A stretch of DNA of 64,000 nt from Ferrigenium kumadai (GTDB lineage: Bacteria; Pseudomonadota; Gammaproteobacteria; Burkholderiales; Gallionellaceae). Of this stretch, positions 3,547 to 16,186 are shown piece by piece. Both the position numbers and the translations under genes were made by a program. The first letter of the stretch is position 1, and each line of letters opens with the position of its first letter. Location: positions 2,356,001-2,420,000 of the forward strand of contig NZ_AP019536.1 of assembly GCF_018324385.1 (NCBI RefSeq), in the 5' to 3' direction. The notes beneath the pieces were generated by a model. The model was not told where the DNA came from and searched no databases. It worked only from the letters and a program-made list of their open reading frames with translations.

Positions 3547-4199
3547 GGTGTGTACAGGTTATGTTGATGAATGTAATCCGCCACCGCATTGGGCAGTAGG
3601 TAGCGTATGGAGCGGCCCTCGGCCACGCGTCGGCGGATATCGGTGGCGGAGATCTCCAGCTTCGGGATCGCCAGTTCGGCGACACCGCCGCTCGGCCTCT
3701 GCGACATTTCTGCGACGGCGCAAACGCGGCGATGGTAGTGGCTTTGCAACTCCGCCGTCGCGCCGTGGATGCGCTCTTCCAGCGTGAAGCCGGGACGGAA
3801 GCCCACCACGATGTGCGCCAGTTCGAACAGCTGCTCCCACTCGTGCCAGGTATGCAATTGCAGGAATGCATCGCCGCCCATCAGCAGGCACAGCGGCTGC
3901 ACCGCGCCCAGTTCGGCGCGCAACTCGCGCAGCGTGTCCACGGTGTAGCTCGGCTTGTCGCGCATGACCTCGCACTCGTCCAGCACGAAGGCGGGCTGAT
4001 CGGCGATGGCCAGTTTCACCATCGCACTGCGCTGCTGCGCGGTCACTTGCGGCGAGCCGCGATGCGGCGGCGTGCCGGCGGGAATGAGGCGGATCTGCTG
4101 GAGGTCCGCCTGCTCCAGCATCTCCTCGGCCAGCCTCAGATGCCCGAAATGGATCGGGTCAAAGGTTCCTCCGAGGATGCCGATGGGTCTGTTGCTCAC
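3540..4199 (-). CDS. nadD: Nicotinate-nucleotide adenylyltransferase
   Basis: Makes deamido-NAD from nicotinate mononucleotide and ATP, the penultimate step of NAD synthesis. 219 aa, typical. The nucleotidyltransferase motif GGTFDPIHFGH lies at residues 9-19 and the ISATDIRRRV motif (equivalent of ISSTxIR) near residue 184. Starts only 2 bp after the aceF stop and overlaps rsfS by 7 bp, so it appears to belong to one long leftward transcript. Confidence 0.96.
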   Translation of the reverse strand: MSNRPIGILGGTFDPIHFGHLRLAEEMLEQADLQQIRLIPAGTPPHRGSPQVTAQQRSAMVKLAIADQPAFVLDECEVMRDKPSYTVDTLRELRAELGAVQPLCLLMGGDAFLQLHTWHEWEQLFELAHIVVGFRPGFTLEERIHGATAELQSHYHRRVCAVAEMSQRPSGGVAELAIPKLEISATDIRRRVAEGRSIRYLLPNAVADYIHQHNLYTPC

Positions 4200-4201
4200 C
4201 G

Positions 4202-5485
4202 TTACACTGCAAGCCGGCGGATGTCAGACAACACGTGCGCGAGATAAGTGGTGAAGCGTGCGCCTGCCGCACCGTCGATCACGCGATGGTCGTAGGATAG
4301 CGACAGCGGCAACATCAGGCGCGCCACGAACTCGCCGTCCTTGTACACCGGCTTCATGCTCGAGCGCGACACGCCGAGAATCGCCACTTCCGGCGCATTG
4401 ATGATCGGCGTGAACGCCGTACCGCCGATGCCGCCCAGGCTGGAGATGGTGAAGCAGCCGCCCTGCATGTCGGCAGCGGTGAGCTTCTTCTCGCGCGCCT
4501 TCGCGCTGATCTCGCCAAGTTCCTTCGCCAGCTGCACGATGCCCTTCTGGTCGACGTCGCGGATCACCGGCACCATCAGGCCGTCCGGCGTATCCACCGC
4601 CACGCCGATGTGGATGTATTTCTTCAGCACCAAGTTCTCGCCGCTCGCATCCAGCGAAGCGTTGAAGTCGGGGAAGTGCTTCAGCGTGGCCGCTGCCGCC
4701 TTGAGCAGGAAGGCCAGCGGGGTGATCTTGATGTTCTGCTTGGCGTATTCCGCACCCAGTTCCTTGCGGAAGGCTTCCATCTCGCTGATGTCGGCTTCCT
4801 CGAACTGCGTGACGTGCGGGATCATCACCCAGTTGCGGTGCAGGTTGGCCCCCGAGATCTTCTTGATGCGCGACAGCGGCTTGTTCTCGACCTCGCCGAA
4901 CTTGGCGAAGTCCACTTCCGGCCACGGCAGCAGGCCCGGCAGCGCGCCGCCGCCCGCCGCACCGCGCGGTTGCGCCAGCGCGGCCTTGACGAAGTTCTGC
5001 ACGTCGTCCTTGGTGACGCGGCCCTTCTCGCCGCTGCCTTTGACCTGCGCGACATCCACGCCGAGTTCGCGCGCAAAACGACGGACGGCCGGACTCGCGT
5101 GCCCCTTGCCGCCCGCTGCCGCGGGCTGCACGGTGCTGGTGACAGCCGGTGCGGCGGCCGGCTTCGCGGCCGGTTGTACTGCGGGCGCAGGCGCAGTAGC
5201 GGCGGCAGGTGTCGCTGCGGGAGCGGGTTGCACGGCCGCTGCCTCGGCGCTGGTTTCCATCACCAGGATCAGGTTGCCTTCCGACACCTTGTCGCCGACC
5301 TTGACCTTCACTTCCTTCACCTTGCCGGCGAAGGGCGACGGCACATCCAGCGTCGCCTTGTCGGTTTCCAGCGTGATCAGGTTGTCTTCGGCGGCGACCG
5401 TGTCTCCGGCCTTGACCAGCACCTCGATCACTGCCACGTCCTTGAAGTTGCCGATGTCCGGCACCAGTACTTGTTGTTCTGCCAT
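4202..5485 (-). CDS. aceF: Pyruvate dehydrogenase E2, dihydrolipoyl acetyltransferase
   Basis: E2 core of the pyruvate dehydrogenase complex, transferring acetyl groups from lipoate to CoA. 427 aa with a single N-terminal lipoyl domain (residues 1-77, lipoyl-lysine Lys43 in ETDKATLD). An Ala/Pro-rich flexible linker covers about 80-127, a peripheral-subunit-binding domain about 130-170 ([14 protein letters not shown]), and the catalytic domain carries [10 protein letters not shown] near the C-terminus. Many proteobacterial AceF proteins have two or three lipoyl domains, so this is the short form. Lies 18 bp downstream of aceE. No lpd (E3) gene follows; nadD does. Confidence 0.96.
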
Positions 5486-10563: not shown

Positions 10564-12891
10564 GTGTTAGCGCGTCGCTCCACCCCGAAACTGGCCGCCT
10601 TATCGGCGGCACTGCTTGTCTTCTCGGCCTTGCTGACGCTCGACGATTTCGAGCGCAAACAGGCCGTGCAGGACCAGCGCCTGCACGTCATGGAGCGCGT
10701 CTCGGCGCTGGACGCAAAACTGGAGGCGGCGATCAGCAAGTCTGCAGCGTCCACAGGAATCATCGCGTCGATCTTCGCGACCCGCCCGGACCTGTCGCAA
10801 ACCGAATTCATCCAGTTGGCCAGGCATGCCAAGACGCTCAGCCCGGACATCCTCAACCTGGCGCTGATCCGAGACACCGTCGTCAATTACGCTTATCCGC
10901 TGGCGGGGAATGAAAAGATCATCGGCCTGGATTACCGCCAGTTGCCGTCGCAGTGGCCCGTCTACCAGCGAATGATGGAGACGCGCCAACCCGTTACCGC
11001 CGGCCCCATGGAACTGGTACAGGGCGGCGTGGCAGTGGTGGTACGCATCCCGGTCTACCACACCGATCCGAAATCGGGCGAGGAACGTTTCCTCGGCGCA
11101 GTCAGCGCACCGGTATTGTTCGATAGCCTGTTGCGCGAGGCTGAAGTAGCCGTGCTGGAGCCGACCGTGAGCGTTGCCATCCGCGGCCGTGACGGGCAAG
11201 GCAGCACGGGCGAAGTCATCTACGGCGACCCCGCCCTGTTCAACGAACAGCCGGTGCTGCGGCGGATCACCCTGCCCGGCGGCAGCTGGGAGATCGCCGC
11301 CATTCCGCGCGCAGGCTGGGGAAGCAACAACACAACCAGGCTTTGGGTCATCCGCACGCTGGGCGGCCTGCTGTGCATACTGGCGGCGCTGATGGCCTAT
11401 GCCGTGGTCAGGCACTTGCAGCAGCGGGCCGAAAATGAAGCCGAACTGAAACAGCGTAGCGCCGAACTGAGCTGTCAGAACGCCGTGCTGGAAATGATCA
11501 CCCACCACGCCGCATTGCCGGACATTCTGGAGATGCTCACCCAATTGGTCGAGCTGCACAACCCTGAAATGTTGTGCGCCATCTTGCTGATCGACAAGGA
11601 CGGCAAGCATCTGCGGCACGGCGTTGCGCCCAGCCTGCCGGATTTCTTCAAACGGGCGCTCCACGGCCTCGCCATCGGCGAAACGACTGGGGCCTGTGGC
11701 ATGGCGGTATCCCGCGGCGAGCGCGTGGTCGTCGAAGACATGCATTCCCACTCTTACCCGGAAGACTTCCGTGCCCTGATCGTCCGCGCAGGATTGCAAT
11801 CCTGCTGGGCTCAGCCCGTCAAGGATCAGGATGGCCGCGTGCTGGGCACCTTTGCCATCTATCAGCGTCATCCCGCCACGCCGGAGCCGGCTGAGATCAC
11901 CCTGATCGAGAACTATGCCGCGCTCGCCGCGCTGGCCATCGAACGCACGCAGACGACCGAAACCTTGCGGCTGCACGATGCCGCGCTCAATGTCGCCGCC
12001 AGTGCGATCTCGATCGCCGACCGGCAGGCACATGTCGTCTGGGCAAACCAGGCATTCACCAGGCTGACCGGATACAGCCTCGACGAGGCGGTCGGGCGCA
12101 CCTATGGCAGACTGCTCAAATCCGGGCTGCATGGCAACGAGTTCTACCGGGACATGTGGCAAACCATCCTCGCCGGGCGGGTATGGCATGGCGAACTGAC
12201 CAACCGGCGCAAAGACGGCGCCCTGTATCACGATGAAACGACCATCACGCCGGTGCGCGATCAGAGCGGCGAAATCACCCATTTCGTCACGATGAGGCAG
12301 GACGTCACCGAACGCAAGATCGCCGAGGAACAGCTGAAGAATCTGGCGTTCTACGATCCCCTGACGCAGCTGCCCAACCGGCGGCTGCTGCTCGACCGCC
12401 TGGGACTGGCACTGGCGATCAGCAAGCGCAGCGGCCGCTATGGTGCGCTGATGTTCCTCGACCTAGACAACTTCAAGCCCCTCAACGACCAGCACGGCCA
12501 CGATGTCGGCGACCTGCTGCTGATGGAGGCCGCACGGCGCATCGTGCATTGCGTCCGCGCGGAGGACACCGTCGCCCGCTTCGGCGGCGACGAGTTCGTG
12601 GTGATGCTCAAGGAACTGGATACCGACCGGACAGTATCCGCCACCCGGGCGCACGGGGTGGCGGAAAAGATCCGCGCCGCAGTGGGAGCCCCCTACCGCC
12701 TGGAGCTATTGCAGGCCGAGAATGGCGAAACCGCAATCGAGCACCACTGCACCACCAGCATCGGCATCGTGATGTTCCTCAATCACGAATCCCCTAGGGA
12801 AGACTTGCTCAAATGGGCGGACATCGGCATGTATCAGGCCAAGGCGGCCGGACGCGACACCATACGCTTCTATGAGCCCGGCAACACCTAG
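10564..12891 (+). CDS. Membrane diguanylate cyclase, CHASE-GAF-PAS-GGDEF
   Basis: Predicted to make c-di-GMP in response to an external signal. The GTG start gives 775 aa. Layout: transmembrane helix about 9-26, periplasmic CHASE-like domain about 40-250 (ALIRDTVVNYAYPLAGN), second helix about 264-282, GAF-like domain about 300-455, PAS domain about 468-585 (WANQAFTRLTGYSLDEAVG), GGDEF about 590-770. The active-site motif is intact (FGGDEF, 674-678 for GGDEF). The inhibitory I-site RAED (Arg665, Asp668) sits five residues before it, so product inhibition is expected. No EAL domain. No clear Shine-Dalgarno before the GTG. The ligand of the CHASE domain is unknown. Confidence 0.9.
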   Translation: MLARRSTPKLAALSAALLVFSALLTLDDFERKQAVQDQRLHVMERVSALDAKLEAAISKSAASTGIIASIFATRPDLSQTEFIQLARHAKTLSPDILNLALIRDTVVNYAYPLAGNEKIIGLDYRQLPSQWPVYQRMMETRQPVTAGPMELVQGGVAVVVRIPVYHTDPKSGEERFLGAVSAPVLFDSLLREAEVAVLEPTVSVAIRGRDGQGSTGEVIYGDPALFNEQPVLRRITLPGGSWEIAAIPRAGWGSNNTTRLWVIRTLGGLLCILAALMAYAVVRHLQQRAENEAELKQRSAELSCQNAVLEMITHHAALPDILEMLTQLVELHNPEMLCAILLIDKDGKHLRHGVAPSLPDFFKRALHGLAIGETTGACGMAVSRGERVVVEDMHSHSYPEDFRALIVRAGLQSCWAQPVKDQDGRVLGTFAIYQRHPATPEPAEITLIENYAALAALAIERTQTTETLRLHDAALNVAASAISIADRQAHVVWANQAFTRLTGYSLDEAVGRTYGRLLKSGLHGNEFYRDMWQTILAGRVWHGELTNRRKDGALYHDETTITPVRDQSGEITHFVTMRQDVTERKIAEEQLKNLAFYDPLTQLPNRRLLLDRLGLALAISKRSGRYGALMFLDLDNFKPLNDQHGHDVGDLLLMEAARRIVHCVRAEDTVARFGGDEFVVMLKELDTDRTVSATRAHGVAEKIRAAVGAPYRLELLQAENGETAIEHHCTTSIGIVMFLNHESPREDLLKWADIGMYQAKAAGRDTIRFYEPGNT

Positions 12892-12937: not shown

Positions 12938-13330
12938 ATGCCGCGCATGGAGAAAAACGACCCGCATGGCATCATCATCCAGACGCAGGTGAACTACCTG
13001 CCGGAGCAGTCCGACGAGTCGGGCAACCGTTTCGTTTTCTCCTACACCATCAGCATCACCAACCTCGGCCGCAATTCCGCCAAGCTGCTCAGCCGCCACT
13101 GGATCATCACCGATGCCTACAACCACGTTCAGGAAGTGCGCGGACAGGGAGTGGTGGGCGAGCAGCCGCTGCTCAAGCCGCACCAGAGCTTCGAGTACAC
13201 CAGCGGCACGGTGCTGACCACACAGGTCGGCACGATGCGCGGCAGTTACCAGATGCAGGCCGACGATGGTTCAACGTTTGATGTCGAGATCCCACAATTC
13301 GTATTGAGTGTACCGCGTGTTCTGCATTAA
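12938..13330 (+). CDS. apaG: ApaG protein
   Basis: ApaG-domain protein of immunoglobulin-like beta fold. Members are linked to Co2+/Mg2+ homeostasis and Ap4A levels, but the molecular role is not settled. 130 aa, full length. Conserved segments include FSYTISITNLGRNSAKLLSRHW and QGVVGEQPLLKPHQSFEYTSG, then GTMRGSYQM near residue 104. The gene overlaps mltA by 23 bp, so the pair is probably co-translated; apaG-mltA adjacency is common in betaproteobacteria. Confidence 0.93.
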   Translation: MPRMEKNDPHGIIIQTQVNYLPEQSDESGNRFVFSYTISITNLGRNSAKLLSRHWIITDAYNHVQEVRGQGVVGEQPLLKPHQSFEYTSGTVLTTQVGTMRGSYQMQADDGSTFDVEIPQFVLSVPRVLH

Positions 13331-14498
13331 CTCCCTTGCCGGCAAACGGCTCCAGGCAGCCCTGCTGCCATTGATGTTCCTCGCCGCCTGCACCACCACA
13401 CCGCCCAAGCCTGCGGTCGCCCCACCTGCTGTCGCCACGCCGCCTGCCGCGCCGTTCGCCGTCAGCAAGTGGGAGATGCTGCCCGACTGGCAGACCATGG
13501 ACCTGCAACCCAGCTGGACGGCCTTTTTGCAGAGCTGCCGCGCGCTGAAGACCAAGCCCGGCTGGCAGGAAACCTGCGCACGCGCCGACGGACTGGCGCA
13601 GCCTGACAACGCGGCATTGCGCAGCTTCTTCGAGCAAGGCTTCTCTCCCTATCAGGTGATCAATGCGGACGGATCGTCTCAGGGTTTGATCACCGGCTAC
13701 TACGAACCCAGACTGTCCGGCAGCCGCGTCAGGACCGATCGCTTCCGTTATCCGCTGTACGCCGCGCCGGACGACCTGCTGACCATCGACCTGGGCGAGG
13801 TGTATCCGCAACTGAAGGACTTGCGCCTGCGCGGTCGCGTGCAAGGCAAGCGCGTCGTACCCTATTACAGCCGCGCCGAGATCGACGACGGCAAAGCCCC
13901 TCTGCCCGGGCGCGAACTGTTCTGGGTGGACGATGCAGTGGACCTGTTCTTCCTGCAGATCCAGGGCTCTGGGCGCATCGAACTGCCGGACGGCAGTCTG
14001 GTGAAGGTCGGCTATGCCGACCAGAACGGACACCCTTATATCTCCATCGGCAAGAAGCTGATCGAGATGGGCGAACTCAAGCCGGAAGAGGCGTCGATGC
14101 AGGGCATCAAGAACTGGGCCGCGCAACACCCGGACCGGCTCGGCGCGCTCCTGGAGCAGAATCCCAGCTATGTGTTTTTCCGCGAATTGCCGAACGGCCT
14201 GTCCGCCCCGCTCGGCGCGCTGGGCGTGCCTTTGACCAATGAATACAGCATCGCGATCGACCCGCGCACCATCCCGCTGGGCGCACCGGTATTGCTATCG
14301 ACCACCTATCCGAATTCCACCGAGCCGCTGAACCGCCTGATGCTGGCGCAGGATACCGGCGGCGCGATCAAAGGCGCGGTACGCGCCGATTTCTTCTGGG
14401 GCTTCGGCGAACAGGCCGGAGTCCAGGCGGGACGGATGAAACAGCGCGGCCAGATGTGGGTACTGTTCCCCAAGGGGACCGAACCGACGGTCAATTGA
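13308..14498 (+). CDS. mltA: Membrane-bound lytic murein transglycosylase A
   Basis: Outer-membrane lipoprotein that cleaves peptidoglycan glycan strands to 1,6-anhydromuropeptides. 396 aa from a GTG inside the apaG 3' end; a second GTG at 13317 is also possible. The signal sequence ends in a lipobox FLAAC with Cys28 as the lipid site, followed by a Pro/Ala linker. Family signatures are LITGYYEP near residue 126, FFLQIQGSGRIELPDG, and the C-terminal 3D-domain motif AQDTGGAIKGAVRADFFWG that contains the catalytic aspartate. No strong ribosome site, which suits coupling to apaG. Confidence 0.94.
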   Translation: MYRVFCINSLAGKRLQAALLPLMFLAACTTTPPKPAVAPPAVATPPAAPFAVSKWEMLPDWQTMDLQPSWTAFLQSCRALKTKPGWQETCARADGLAQPDNAALRSFFEQGFSPYQVINADGSSQGLITGYYEPRLSGSRVRTDRFRYPLYAAPDDLLTIDLGEVYPQLKDLRLRGRVQGKRVVPYYSRAEIDDGKAPLPGRELFWVDDAVDLFFLQIQGSGRIELPDGSLVKVGYADQNGHPYISIGKKLIEMGELKPEEASMQGIKNWAAQHPDRLGALLEQNPSYVFFRELPNGLSAPLGALGVPLTNEYSIAIDPRTIPLGAPVLLSTTYPNSTEPLNRLMLAQDTGGAIKGAVRADFFWGFGEQAGVQAGRMKQRGQMWVLFPKGTEPTVN

Positions 14499-15444
14499 CG
14501 ATGTGCACCAGATTGCGGCCGTGATGTTTGGCGTCGTACAGCGCCACTTCGGCCAGCTTGATCAGCTCGTCCTCGGAGGTGTCGCGGGAAGGGATACGGG
14601 AAACGCCGCCGATACTGATGGTCACCACGCCGAGCGCCGAGTCGCTGTACGGAATGCTCAGTGCACGCACTTTTTCGCTGAGCTTCTGGGCATGCAGTTG
14701 CAGGTCTTCGTAGTTGGTCCCCAGCGACACCACTGAAAACAACGCACCGCCATAACGTGCGGCACAGTCCGACGAGCGCATGAAGGACTTGGCGATGCAA
14801 TCGCCGACGATACGCAGGCATTCATCGCCGGCGCTCTCCCCGTAGCGCTGGTTGAACAGCTTGAAGCGGTCCAGATCGATCATCAGCACCGACAGTTCGC
14901 TGTGGGTGCGCTGTGCGGCAGCAAGCATATGGGTGAACTGCTCATCGAAACGGCGGCGGTTGCTGATACCGACCAGCGGGTCGGTGTACACCAAGGTGTT
15001 CAATTGCATATTCAGTGCATCCAGATCCAGCCCGGACTGGTGCAAGCGTTGATCGAGCATGATCTTCACCGTCTCGTCTTTCTGGATACCGATGAAGTGG
15101 GTGAGCACTCCTTCATCGTTGTGTACCGGCGAGATGCTCAACTCGTTCCAGAACATCGAGCCGTCCTTGCGGTAATTGCGTAAGGTCACCGTGCACCCCT
15201 CCCCGCGCGCAAGCGCGGCACGTATCGTCTCCAGTTCCGGCTGTGCGGTGTCGGTGCCCTGCAAAAAACGGTAGTCGCGCCCGAGCACTTCCTCGGCCTT
15301 GTAACCGGTTATCTGCTCGAACCCCATGTTGACATAAAGGATCGGGGTCCCTTTCTTGCGGGCATCGGCGATAGTGATGCCGTCGTGCGACTCGTTGATC
15401 GCCTTGACCAGCAGGTCGCGCGAGATTTCCTCGGAATCGCCCAT
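14491..15444 (-). CDS. LOV-like PAS protein with degenerate GGDEF domain
   Basis: 317 aa from the ATG at 15444, which has a GGGAGGG ribosome site; a longer frame exists upstream without one. Residues about 15-125 are a PAS domain of LOV type: GRDYRFLQG (55-63) matches the LOV signature GxNCRFLQ, but Tyr58 replaces the flavin-adduct cysteine. NYRKDGSMFWNELSISPV and HFIGIQKD are also LOV-like. A GGDEF fold follows (TDPLVGISNRRRFDEQF onward). The active-site motif is GGALF (232-236) instead of GGDEF, so cyclase activity is unlikely, while the I-site RSSD (Arg223, Asp226) is kept. A c-di-GMP receptor role is inferred. Lies 10 bp after dsbC; converges on mltA with an 8-bp overlap. Confidence 0.9.
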   Translation of the reverse strand: MGDSEEISRDLLVKAINESHDGITIADARKKGTPILYVNMGFEQITGYKAEEVLGRDYRFLQGTDTAQPELETIRAALARGEGCTVTLRNYRKDGSMFWNELSISPVHNDEGVLTHFIGIQKDETVKIMLDQRLHQSGLDLDALNMQLNTLVYTDPLVGISNRRRFDEQFTHMLAAAQRTHSELSVLMIDLDRFKLFNQRYGESAGDECLRIVGDCIAKSFMRSSDCAARYGGALFSVVSLGTNYEDLQLHAQKLSEKVRALSIPYSDSALGVVTISIGGVSRIPSRDTSEDELIKLAEVALYDAKHHGRNLVHIVN

Positions 15445-15454
15445 GTCACCCTCC

Positions 15455-16186
15455 CTACTTGGTTGACGCGTCCAGACGCTTCTCCAGTTCTTCCGCGGGC
15501 AAATACCCGGGAACTTGGCTGCCATCGCCGAAGATCAGGTTCGGCGTGCCAGTGACGCGATGCTTCCTGCCCAGCGCCATGATCTCCTCTAGCGGCATCT
15601 TGCAGGACGCCGTATCCGGCGCAACGCCGTTCAGCATCAGGTTGTCCCATGCCTTGACCGGGTTCTTCGCACAGTAGACATTGCGCGCAATCACGTCCGA
15701 CCCCTGGAAAATCGGATACAGGAACAGGTACAGCGTGACATCGCTGACCTTGCTCAGCTCCTTCTCCAGGCGCTTGCAATAGCCGCAGTTCGGGTCGGTG
15801 AAATAGGCCAGCTTGCGCTTGCCGTTGCCTTTCACCTTCTTCACGGCCAGGTCGAGCGGCAACTTGTCGAATTCGATGGCGAACAGCTGGCGGCGGCGTT
15901 CCTCGGTCAGGTCGCGGCGGCTCTTCGCATCGATCACGCTGCCTTCGAACAGGTACTGGCCTTGTGCATCGGTGTACAGCAACTGGTCGCCGACCACGAT
16001 CTCATACAGGCCGCTATACGGCGTCTTGACCACATGCTCCAGCTTGCCGATGTTGGGGAATTTGCTCTGCAGCGATTGGCGGATCTCCTTCTCGCCCGCA
16101 TGGGCGGAAGACAGCAGAACGAACATCAACAGGCCGAGCAGTTTTTTGGCCAAACTCATTTCCTTCGTTTTCATATTGGGTTCCAT
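15455..16186 (-). CDS. dsbC: Thiol:disulfide interchange protein DsbC
   Basis: Periplasmic disulfide isomerase, kept reduced by DsbD (encoded at 56.3 kb). 243 aa; translation may start at the second Met (MKTKEMSLAKK, residue 5). A signal peptide ends at about SSAHA. The N-terminal dimerisation domain covers about 35-95, and the thioredoxin-like domain carries the active site NCGYCKRLE (CGYC). A second cysteine pair is in NVYCAKN and TASCKMP. The cis-proline loop is GTPNLIFGDG. Starts at the last base of the ubiH stop, so it is coupled to ubiH. Confidence 0.94.
   Translation of the reverse strand: MEPNMKTKEMSLAKKLLGLLMFVLLSSAHAGEKEIRQSLQSKFPNIGKLEHVVKTPYSGLYEIVVGDQLLYTDAQGQYLFEGSVIDAKSRRDLTEERRRQLFAIEFDKLPLDLAVKKVKGNGKRKLAYFTDPNCGYCKRLEKELSKVSDVTLYLFLYPIFQGSDVIARNVYCAKNPVKAWDNLMLNGVAPDTASCKMPLEEIMALGRKHRVTGTPNLIFGDGSQVPGYLPAEELEKRLDASTK

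Follow-up and report, generated by a model that had tools for sequence, protein, structure and literature searches.

Among described proteins, the best solved relative of the one treated here is MsLadC of Methylotenera, a blue-light-activated diguanylate cyclase whose dark structure is available as 8c05 (PMC10396304). LadC proteins consist of one LOV domain and one C-terminal GGDEF domain joined by a long linker, and they carry the RxxD motif of the I-site (inhibitory site) for cyclic di-GMP (c-di-GMP) (PMC10396304, PMC12805367). Related in other respects are the LOV domains without the adduct-forming cysteine, called LOV* and described for BAT of halobacteria, which can still signal when reduced by light or by chemical means (PMC4682037), the degenerate GGDEF receptors PopA, PelD, CdgA and SgmT, which lost the active site (A-site) and kept RxxD (PMC3974145), and, for its I-site, WspR (PDB 3bre; PMC2270323), which has a receiver domain and is enzymatically active. 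This article describes a LOV-GGDEF gene in a stretch of 64,000 nucleotides of Ferrigenium kumadai (contig NZ_AP019536.1, positions 2,356,001 to 2,420,000), hereafter called the window. Its product lacks both the LOV cysteine and the GGDEF active site, and it belongs to a family at one conserved locus in which these two sites are lost by degrees and the I-site is fixed. The reading favoured here, held with a confidence just short of even, is that the cyclase is dead and has been retained to bind c-di-GMP, with a flavin input by redox or photoreduction.

The criteria for LadC were taken from the family definition in PMC10396304, that is, the LOV motifs, the cysteine motif, DxLT and GG(D/E)EF. 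In the window protein the cysteine motif Gx(N/D)C(R/H)(F/I)L(Q/A) appears as GRDYRFLQ and departs from the consensus at the cysteine alone, which is Tyr58, and the other two LOV motifs, FxxxT(G/E)Y and N(Y/F)xxx(G/D)xx(F/L)xN, are found as FEQITGY (residues 42-48) and NYRKDGSMFWN (residues 90-100). In the GGDEF domain, both acidic residues of the loop are gone from GGALF, and the intact I-site R223-S-S-D226 is followed five residues on by G232-G-A-L-F236. A first-pass annotation, made by a model from the letters of this DNA, had reported GRDYRFLQG with Tyr58 in place of the LOV cysteine, GGALF in place of GGDEF and an intact RSSD five residues ahead, all of which are confirmed in the translation of the open reading frame (ORF); the change of DxLT to DPLV was absent from its list. 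In the alignment with WspR, R223xxD226 corresponds to R242xxD245 and R179 to R198, which in WspR is supplied to the c-di-GMP site by an adjacent GGDEF domain (PMC2270323). WspR with GGAAF is said, as unpublished data in the same paper, to bind added c-di-GMP, and the GGAAF variant of MsLadC, with compromised activity, is presented as a negative control in a figure legend of PMC12805367.

Because both acidic residues of the loop are gone, synthesis of c-di-GMP is not expected, and the window protein is almost certainly dead as a catalyst. A normal LOV photocycle is impossible since the adduct cysteine is a tyrosine. Product feedback would be meaningless in a dead enzyme, so that the retained I-site calls for another role, and binding of c-di-GMP is fairly probable. 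The five flavin-pocket residues that were checked besides the cysteine (R59, Q62, N90, N100 and Q121), picked from the family motifs and general background on LOV domains and not from the full list of PMC4682037, are all kept, and binding of flavin is regarded as likely. By analogy with the LOV* proteins, a redox input or a weak light input is a reasonable suggestion for this protein. That both ligands are bound and coupled is put at a little below an even chance. In its own genome, a single contig of 2,572,603 bases, 25 EAL and 5 PilZ matches indicate that a c-di-GMP network is present. A search with the LOV part gave nine further matches there, and none of the 10 domains aligned has a cysteine at the adduct place, so there is no second LOV domain at the search threshold.

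The alignment with 8c05 covers residues 8-312 (expectation value, E, 5e-73) and shows no gap as printed. An AlphaFold2 model built with 53 family sequences has a mean predicted local distance difference test (pLDDT) of 91.9 and a predicted template modelling score (pTM) of 0.60, and its top Foldseek match is again 8c05. Taken singly, the model domains match LOV proteins (7r5n_A, template modelling score, TM, 0.93 on target) and WspR (3i5b, TM 0.93). The overall root mean square deviation from 8c05 is 23 Å, which reflects a different placement of the domains, and placement in the model is unreliable at this pTM.

Orthologues were sought in 76 genomes of the same genus (Gallionella/Ferrigenium), that of the window included, a match being an E of 1e-60 or better. 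They were found in 50 of the 76, and in 31 of the 44 genomes with a completeness of 90% or more and a contamination of 5% or less. The named matching contigs are from Gallionella, Candidatus Ferrigenium and metagenome-assembled genomes labelled Gallionellaceae, Gallionellales, Nitrosomonadales and, in one case, Proteobacteria. Of the 43 named family loci, 42 have dsbC upstream of the gene on the same strand; the 43rd (L062; L and G numbers are our working labels) begins at a contig end. A convergent mltA lies downstream in 32 of the 43, beside intact and degenerate members alike; among the 11 loci without it, six have a short downstream sequence and L035, L053, L057, L058 and L066 give no match within about 4 kb. 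This shared setting means that the family members, intact and degenerate, are orthologues in place, and an artefact of paralogy is disfavoured by it. A sample of 300 genomes from the whole order contained, outside the genus, four more proteins of the same size (L157-L160, E 1e-65 or better), all with the cysteine, DxLT, GG[DE]EF and RxxD. In L279, which comes from a different genus of the family, the cysteine and RPAD are present together with GGEEM, and neither dsbC nor mltA is matched within 8 kb.

A tree was made of 53 sequences, namely 44 derived and 5 intact ones, distinct after merging of identical sequences, and the outgroup L157-L160, counted apart; L073, which has the GGDEF part only, was excluded from the tree and from all counts over the 44 rows. 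The genus members are divided into the 5 intact ones, with the cysteine, DxLT and GGEEF, and the 44 derived ones, which form one clade including the window (support 100/96). In this clade RxxD is present in 44/44, GG[DE]EF in 10/44 and the LOV cysteine in 7/44; cysteine and GG[DE]EF occur together in none, both being lost in 27 members and one of them in 17, and the threonine of DxLT is gone in all 44. R179 is kept in 43 of 44. The fewest state changes on the tree are 4 for the cysteine, 7 for GG[DE]EF (8 when L279 is added) and 1 for RxxD, and this sole RxxD change is RPSE in L147, a protein with intact cysteine and GGEEF. The nearest relative of the window protein is its sister L031, 76% identical, which has GKSYRFLQG, thus sharing Tyr58, and GGAQF; the substitutions are therefore seen in a related genome, as the first-pass annotation had proposed to check. 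It had also held that orthologues with intact cysteine and GGDEF would speak for a recent decay. Such orthologues exist in 5 of the 50, but recent decay is not borne out, as all 44 clade members lost the cysteine, the motif or both, and a private decay in this genome is ruled out because L031 and the whole clade share the loss.

Purifying selection on the gene family is shown by the sequences. Over the 44 rows, R223 and D226 have no amino-acid change on the tree against 8 codon changes each, whereas the loop positions G232, G233, 234, 235 and F236 require at least 16, 8, 12, 5 and 0 changes, respectively, the median of the domain being 6. Unchanged sites number 14 of 159 in the GGDEF domain, and the chance that both I-site residues are among them is, as a rough figure, about 0.007. 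The ratio of nonsynonymous to synonymous substitution rates (dN/dS) is 0.17 for the derived clade in one codon-model fit, and therefore the pattern is not simple decay. In 13 derived pairs dN/dS is 0.02-0.39 for the whole gene and 0.00-0.25 for the GGDEF part, and for the window and L031 it is 0.11 and 0.07, rough values with silent sites near saturation (dS 1.3); the intact pair L061/L062 gave 0.15 and 0.16. No stop codon lies inside the gene in the 50 listed matches, and neutral decay is disfavoured by this together with the dN/dS of the clade. For comparison, a family of cyclases in this genus that kept their active site (27 sequences, L282-L308) has GG[DE]EF in 26/27 and RxxD in 27/27. The remaining GGDEF domains encoded in the own genome (42 of 43 used, L216 having given no match) have GG[DE]EF in 38/42 and RxxD in 37/42. 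The difference in GG[DE]EF between the clade and the own genome gives a Fisher p of 8e-11, which is overstated since the rows are related. Retention of RxxD alone is not special, being usual in cyclases; what is special is its retention alongside the loss of the active site. The strict I-site, the dN/dS of the clade and the conserved R179 give evolutionary support to the first-pass suggestion of a c-di-GMP receptor, namely a dead GGDEF domain kept for its I-site, and the suggestion is partly supported overall by this comparison of sequences.

According to the favoured reading, the ancestor would have been a blue-light-activated diguanylate cyclase of the LadC type, and the present protein would be a pseudoenzyme. 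Its LOV dimer would bind flavin mononucleotide (FMN), and reduction of the flavin, chemical or by light, would be signalled via the linker helix. c-di-GMP from the other cyclases of the genome would bind to the I-site and bridge two GGDEF domains, and a partner protein, perhaps a further cyclase or a phosphodiesterase, would read out the combined state on contact. Most likely, then, the protein is akin in function to the degenerate GGDEF receptors and is of LadC descent, although the criteria that define the LadC family exclude it. It shares with LadC the single LOV domain, the single C-terminal GGDEF domain, the long linker and RxxD, but lacks the adduct cysteine, the threonine of DxLT and GG[DE]EF and is predicted to make no c-di-GMP. 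As in LOV*, the LOV motif residues are kept except the cysteine and reduction of the flavin is a possible signal; unlike the LOV* domains described in PMC4682037, with Ala, His and Pro among other residues at this place, the window protein has Tyr, is coupled to GGDEF and binds flavin only by prediction. From PopA, PelD, CdgA and SgmT, as treated in PMC3974145, this putative receptor differs by its LOV input and by its origin, in place, from a LOV cyclase of which intact orthologues are still found in related species. The I-site has the same aligned residues as that of WspR. In the literature, no paper was found on a cysteine-lacking LOV domain with GGDEF or on Ferrigenium and c-di-GMP. PMC10396304 mentions, at fig. 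S1, homologues without conserved LOV residues, among which members of the present clade may be included.

Several observations weigh against this reading. In dark MsLadC the RxxD loop sits in the LOV dimer groove, and dark activity rises when RxxD is altered (PMC10396304, PMC12805367), so the I-site of the window protein might be kept as a packing surface for the LOV dimer in a caged resting form and not for c-di-GMP. The long linker of the window protein agrees with such caging, and among the MsLadC contacts R174 corresponds to R179, kept in 43/44, and E77 is Glu in 28/44; Gln is seen at the place of Q242 in 0/44 and Asp at that of D44 in no more than 2/44, a weak objection since both positions are variable among the 9 intact and outgroup rows too. 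On the other side, RxxD is kept in 15 of 15 derived members whose linker is shorter by 14 or 17 residues, and the MsLadC authors argue that shorter linkers are unable to form the cage; the LOV-less L073 also keeps RSSD. Reception of c-di-GMP is favoured over caging by the short-linker members and L073, and caging is considered unlikely. Next, both loop acids are still present in 26 of the 44 derived members by hand count and are lost together only in the window, L031, L054 and L066. Because the loss is graded and active AGDEF and SGDEF cyclases are known (PMC3974145), derived members of the SGEEF or GGEEF type may still be enzymes. That the window protein itself is still a working cyclase with an unusual active site is very improbable, since AGDEF and SGDEF keep both acids while GGALF has neither, like the low-activity GGAAF of MsLadC. 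Furthermore, the control family L282-L308 is likewise without change at the I-site Arg or Asp, and RxxD is found in 34 of the 38 own-genome GGDEF domains with a kept active site.

The flavin part of the reading is the more restricted one. N90 is kept in 44/44 derived members, Q121 in 37, Q62 in 36, N100 in 35 and R59 in 31, and all five are found in 26 of the 44, the window included, 22 of these being without the cysteine. Among the points against, Q62 is Phe in six derived members and N100 is Ser or Gly in nine, and these may not bind flavin; in addition, the whole LOV domain is missing from L073 (genome G082, a Gallionella), where a GGDEF-only ORF (3973-4516; the same gene is in L151) follows dsbC with the loop DSEQF and the I-site RSSD. 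Because of these three facts, flavin sensing cannot hold across the clade, and the flavin input put forward in the first-pass annotation is plausible for the window protein and not for the clade as a whole. Three other cysteines are near-invariant in the derived clade, Cys84 in 43/44, Cys209 in 44/44 and Cys227 in 42/44, where the adduct cysteine is mostly lost, and these were considered as a possible thiol switch on their conservation counts.

The gene is also missing from many genomes. There is no match in 26 of the 76, some of which are incomplete, and at dsbC in 16 gene-less genomes the aligned parts of dsbC and mltA come within about 300 bases of each other in 10; in an eleventh (G021) a C-terminal remnant of 48 residues, 92% identical to L069, lies between them (L256, 759-905), apparently a recent deletion. 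In view of the missing matches and of a seemingly clean loss in several genomes, the gene is dispensable, though constrained where it is present. The close pair L044/L045 has the highest dN/dS, 0.39, with 0.64 for the LOV part. These absences, the remnant, the missing LOV domain of L073 and the many changes at both hallmark sites would be expected if function had been lost and the gene were decaying slowly, the reading frame being open by recent history. This is quite unlikely in view of the absence of internal stops, the low dN/dS of the clade, the strict I-site and a GGDEF-part dN/dS of 0.00-0.25 in the derived pairs, against 0.16 in the one intact pair. A GTP-binding degenerate GGDEF domain is that of CC3396/PdeA of Caulobacter, and similarly the A-site here may still bind guanosine triphosphate (GTP) or another guanine nucleotide, making the protein a GTP sensor or an allosteric partner. 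The guanine-, metal- and phosphate-binding positions, which we take by PleD to be D190, D192, K195, N198, D207, K306 and R310, are all kept in the window, and in the clade N198 and D207 are kept in 40/44 and D192 in 41/44. However, both loop acids are absent in the window and K195 and R310 have 15 and 9 changes in the clade, so this is rather improbable. Finally, a scaffold or heterodimer partner using neither ligand, paired for example with an active cyclase, would suit a protein without an output domain, as the dimer surfaces of PAS and GGDEF domains could outlive both ligands, but it does not predict the strict keeping of the charged I-site pair and of N90, and is judged more improbable still.

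The features of the locus are collected in Table 1. The neighbouring dsbC had led the first-pass annotation to suggest a redox link, which is not supported: dsbC is an operon-like neighbour only, and it is present in 74 of the 76 genomes as against 50 for the LOV-GGDEF gene. In one gene-less genome, the place between dsbC and mltA is taken by a 437-residue ORF that resembles a membrane transporter (L249, 934-2244). Beyond mltA and apaG, at 10564-12891 of the window, there is a CHASE-GAF-PAS-GGDEF cyclase with intact GGDEF and RAED, which has a homologue on the same side (57-67% identity) at L040 and L054 only.

Table 1. Features of the LOV-GGDEF locus (positions in the window)
Feature	Position	Strand	Basis or remark
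LOV-GGDEF gene (P0001), 317 residues	14491..15444, stop codon included	-	ORF, Pfam, 8c05 alignment; ATG at 15444, stop codon 14491-14493; GGAGGG four bases 5' of ATG; Pfam PAS_9 (residues 21-125, E 8e-23) and GGDEF (153-311, E 4e-38)
N-terminal LOV-type PAS domain, residues 1-125	15070..15444	-	R59, Q62, N90, N100, Q121 kept
Place of LOV cysteine motif, G55-R-D-Y58-R-F-L-Q-G63	15256..15282	-	
Linker helix, residues 125-152	14989..15072	-	single helix in model; length as in long-linker MsLadC
Degenerate GGDEF domain, residues 153-311	14512..14988	-	DPLV in place of DxLT
Arg179, second I-site arginine	14908..14910	-	aligned with WspR R198
RSSD I-site, residues 223-226	14767..14778	-	
GGALF, residues 232-236	14737..14751	-	replaces GG[DE]EF
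dsbC (DsbC_N and thioredoxin-like)	15455..16186	-	ends 10 bases upstream of LOV-GGDEF gene, same strand; neighbour kept in orthologues
mltA	13308..14498	+	convergent neighbour; beside many orthologues too

Degenerate GGDEF proteins are common, and whether one is a receptor or a relic is usually settled case by case. Here one syntenic locus offers 50 natural variants, from an intact LOV cyclase to a double pseudo-domain, with the I-site alone fixed, and living species have intact enzymes, proteins with one hallmark lost, proteins with both lost and one without the sensor. It is possible, at somewhat less than an even chance, that at this conserved locus, within a single genus, a light-driven producer of c-di-GMP became in place a receptor for it whose flavin input acts by redox or photoreduction, and that these variants are the surviving intermediates. 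This transition from producer to receptor, and the dual role of the I-site as ligand site or as LOV-packing surface, can be tested against a structurally solved relative. The favoured reading also predicts that flavin redox state feeds into c-di-GMP signalling in freshwater iron oxidisers living at low oxygen, which would naturally need to sense redox conditions.
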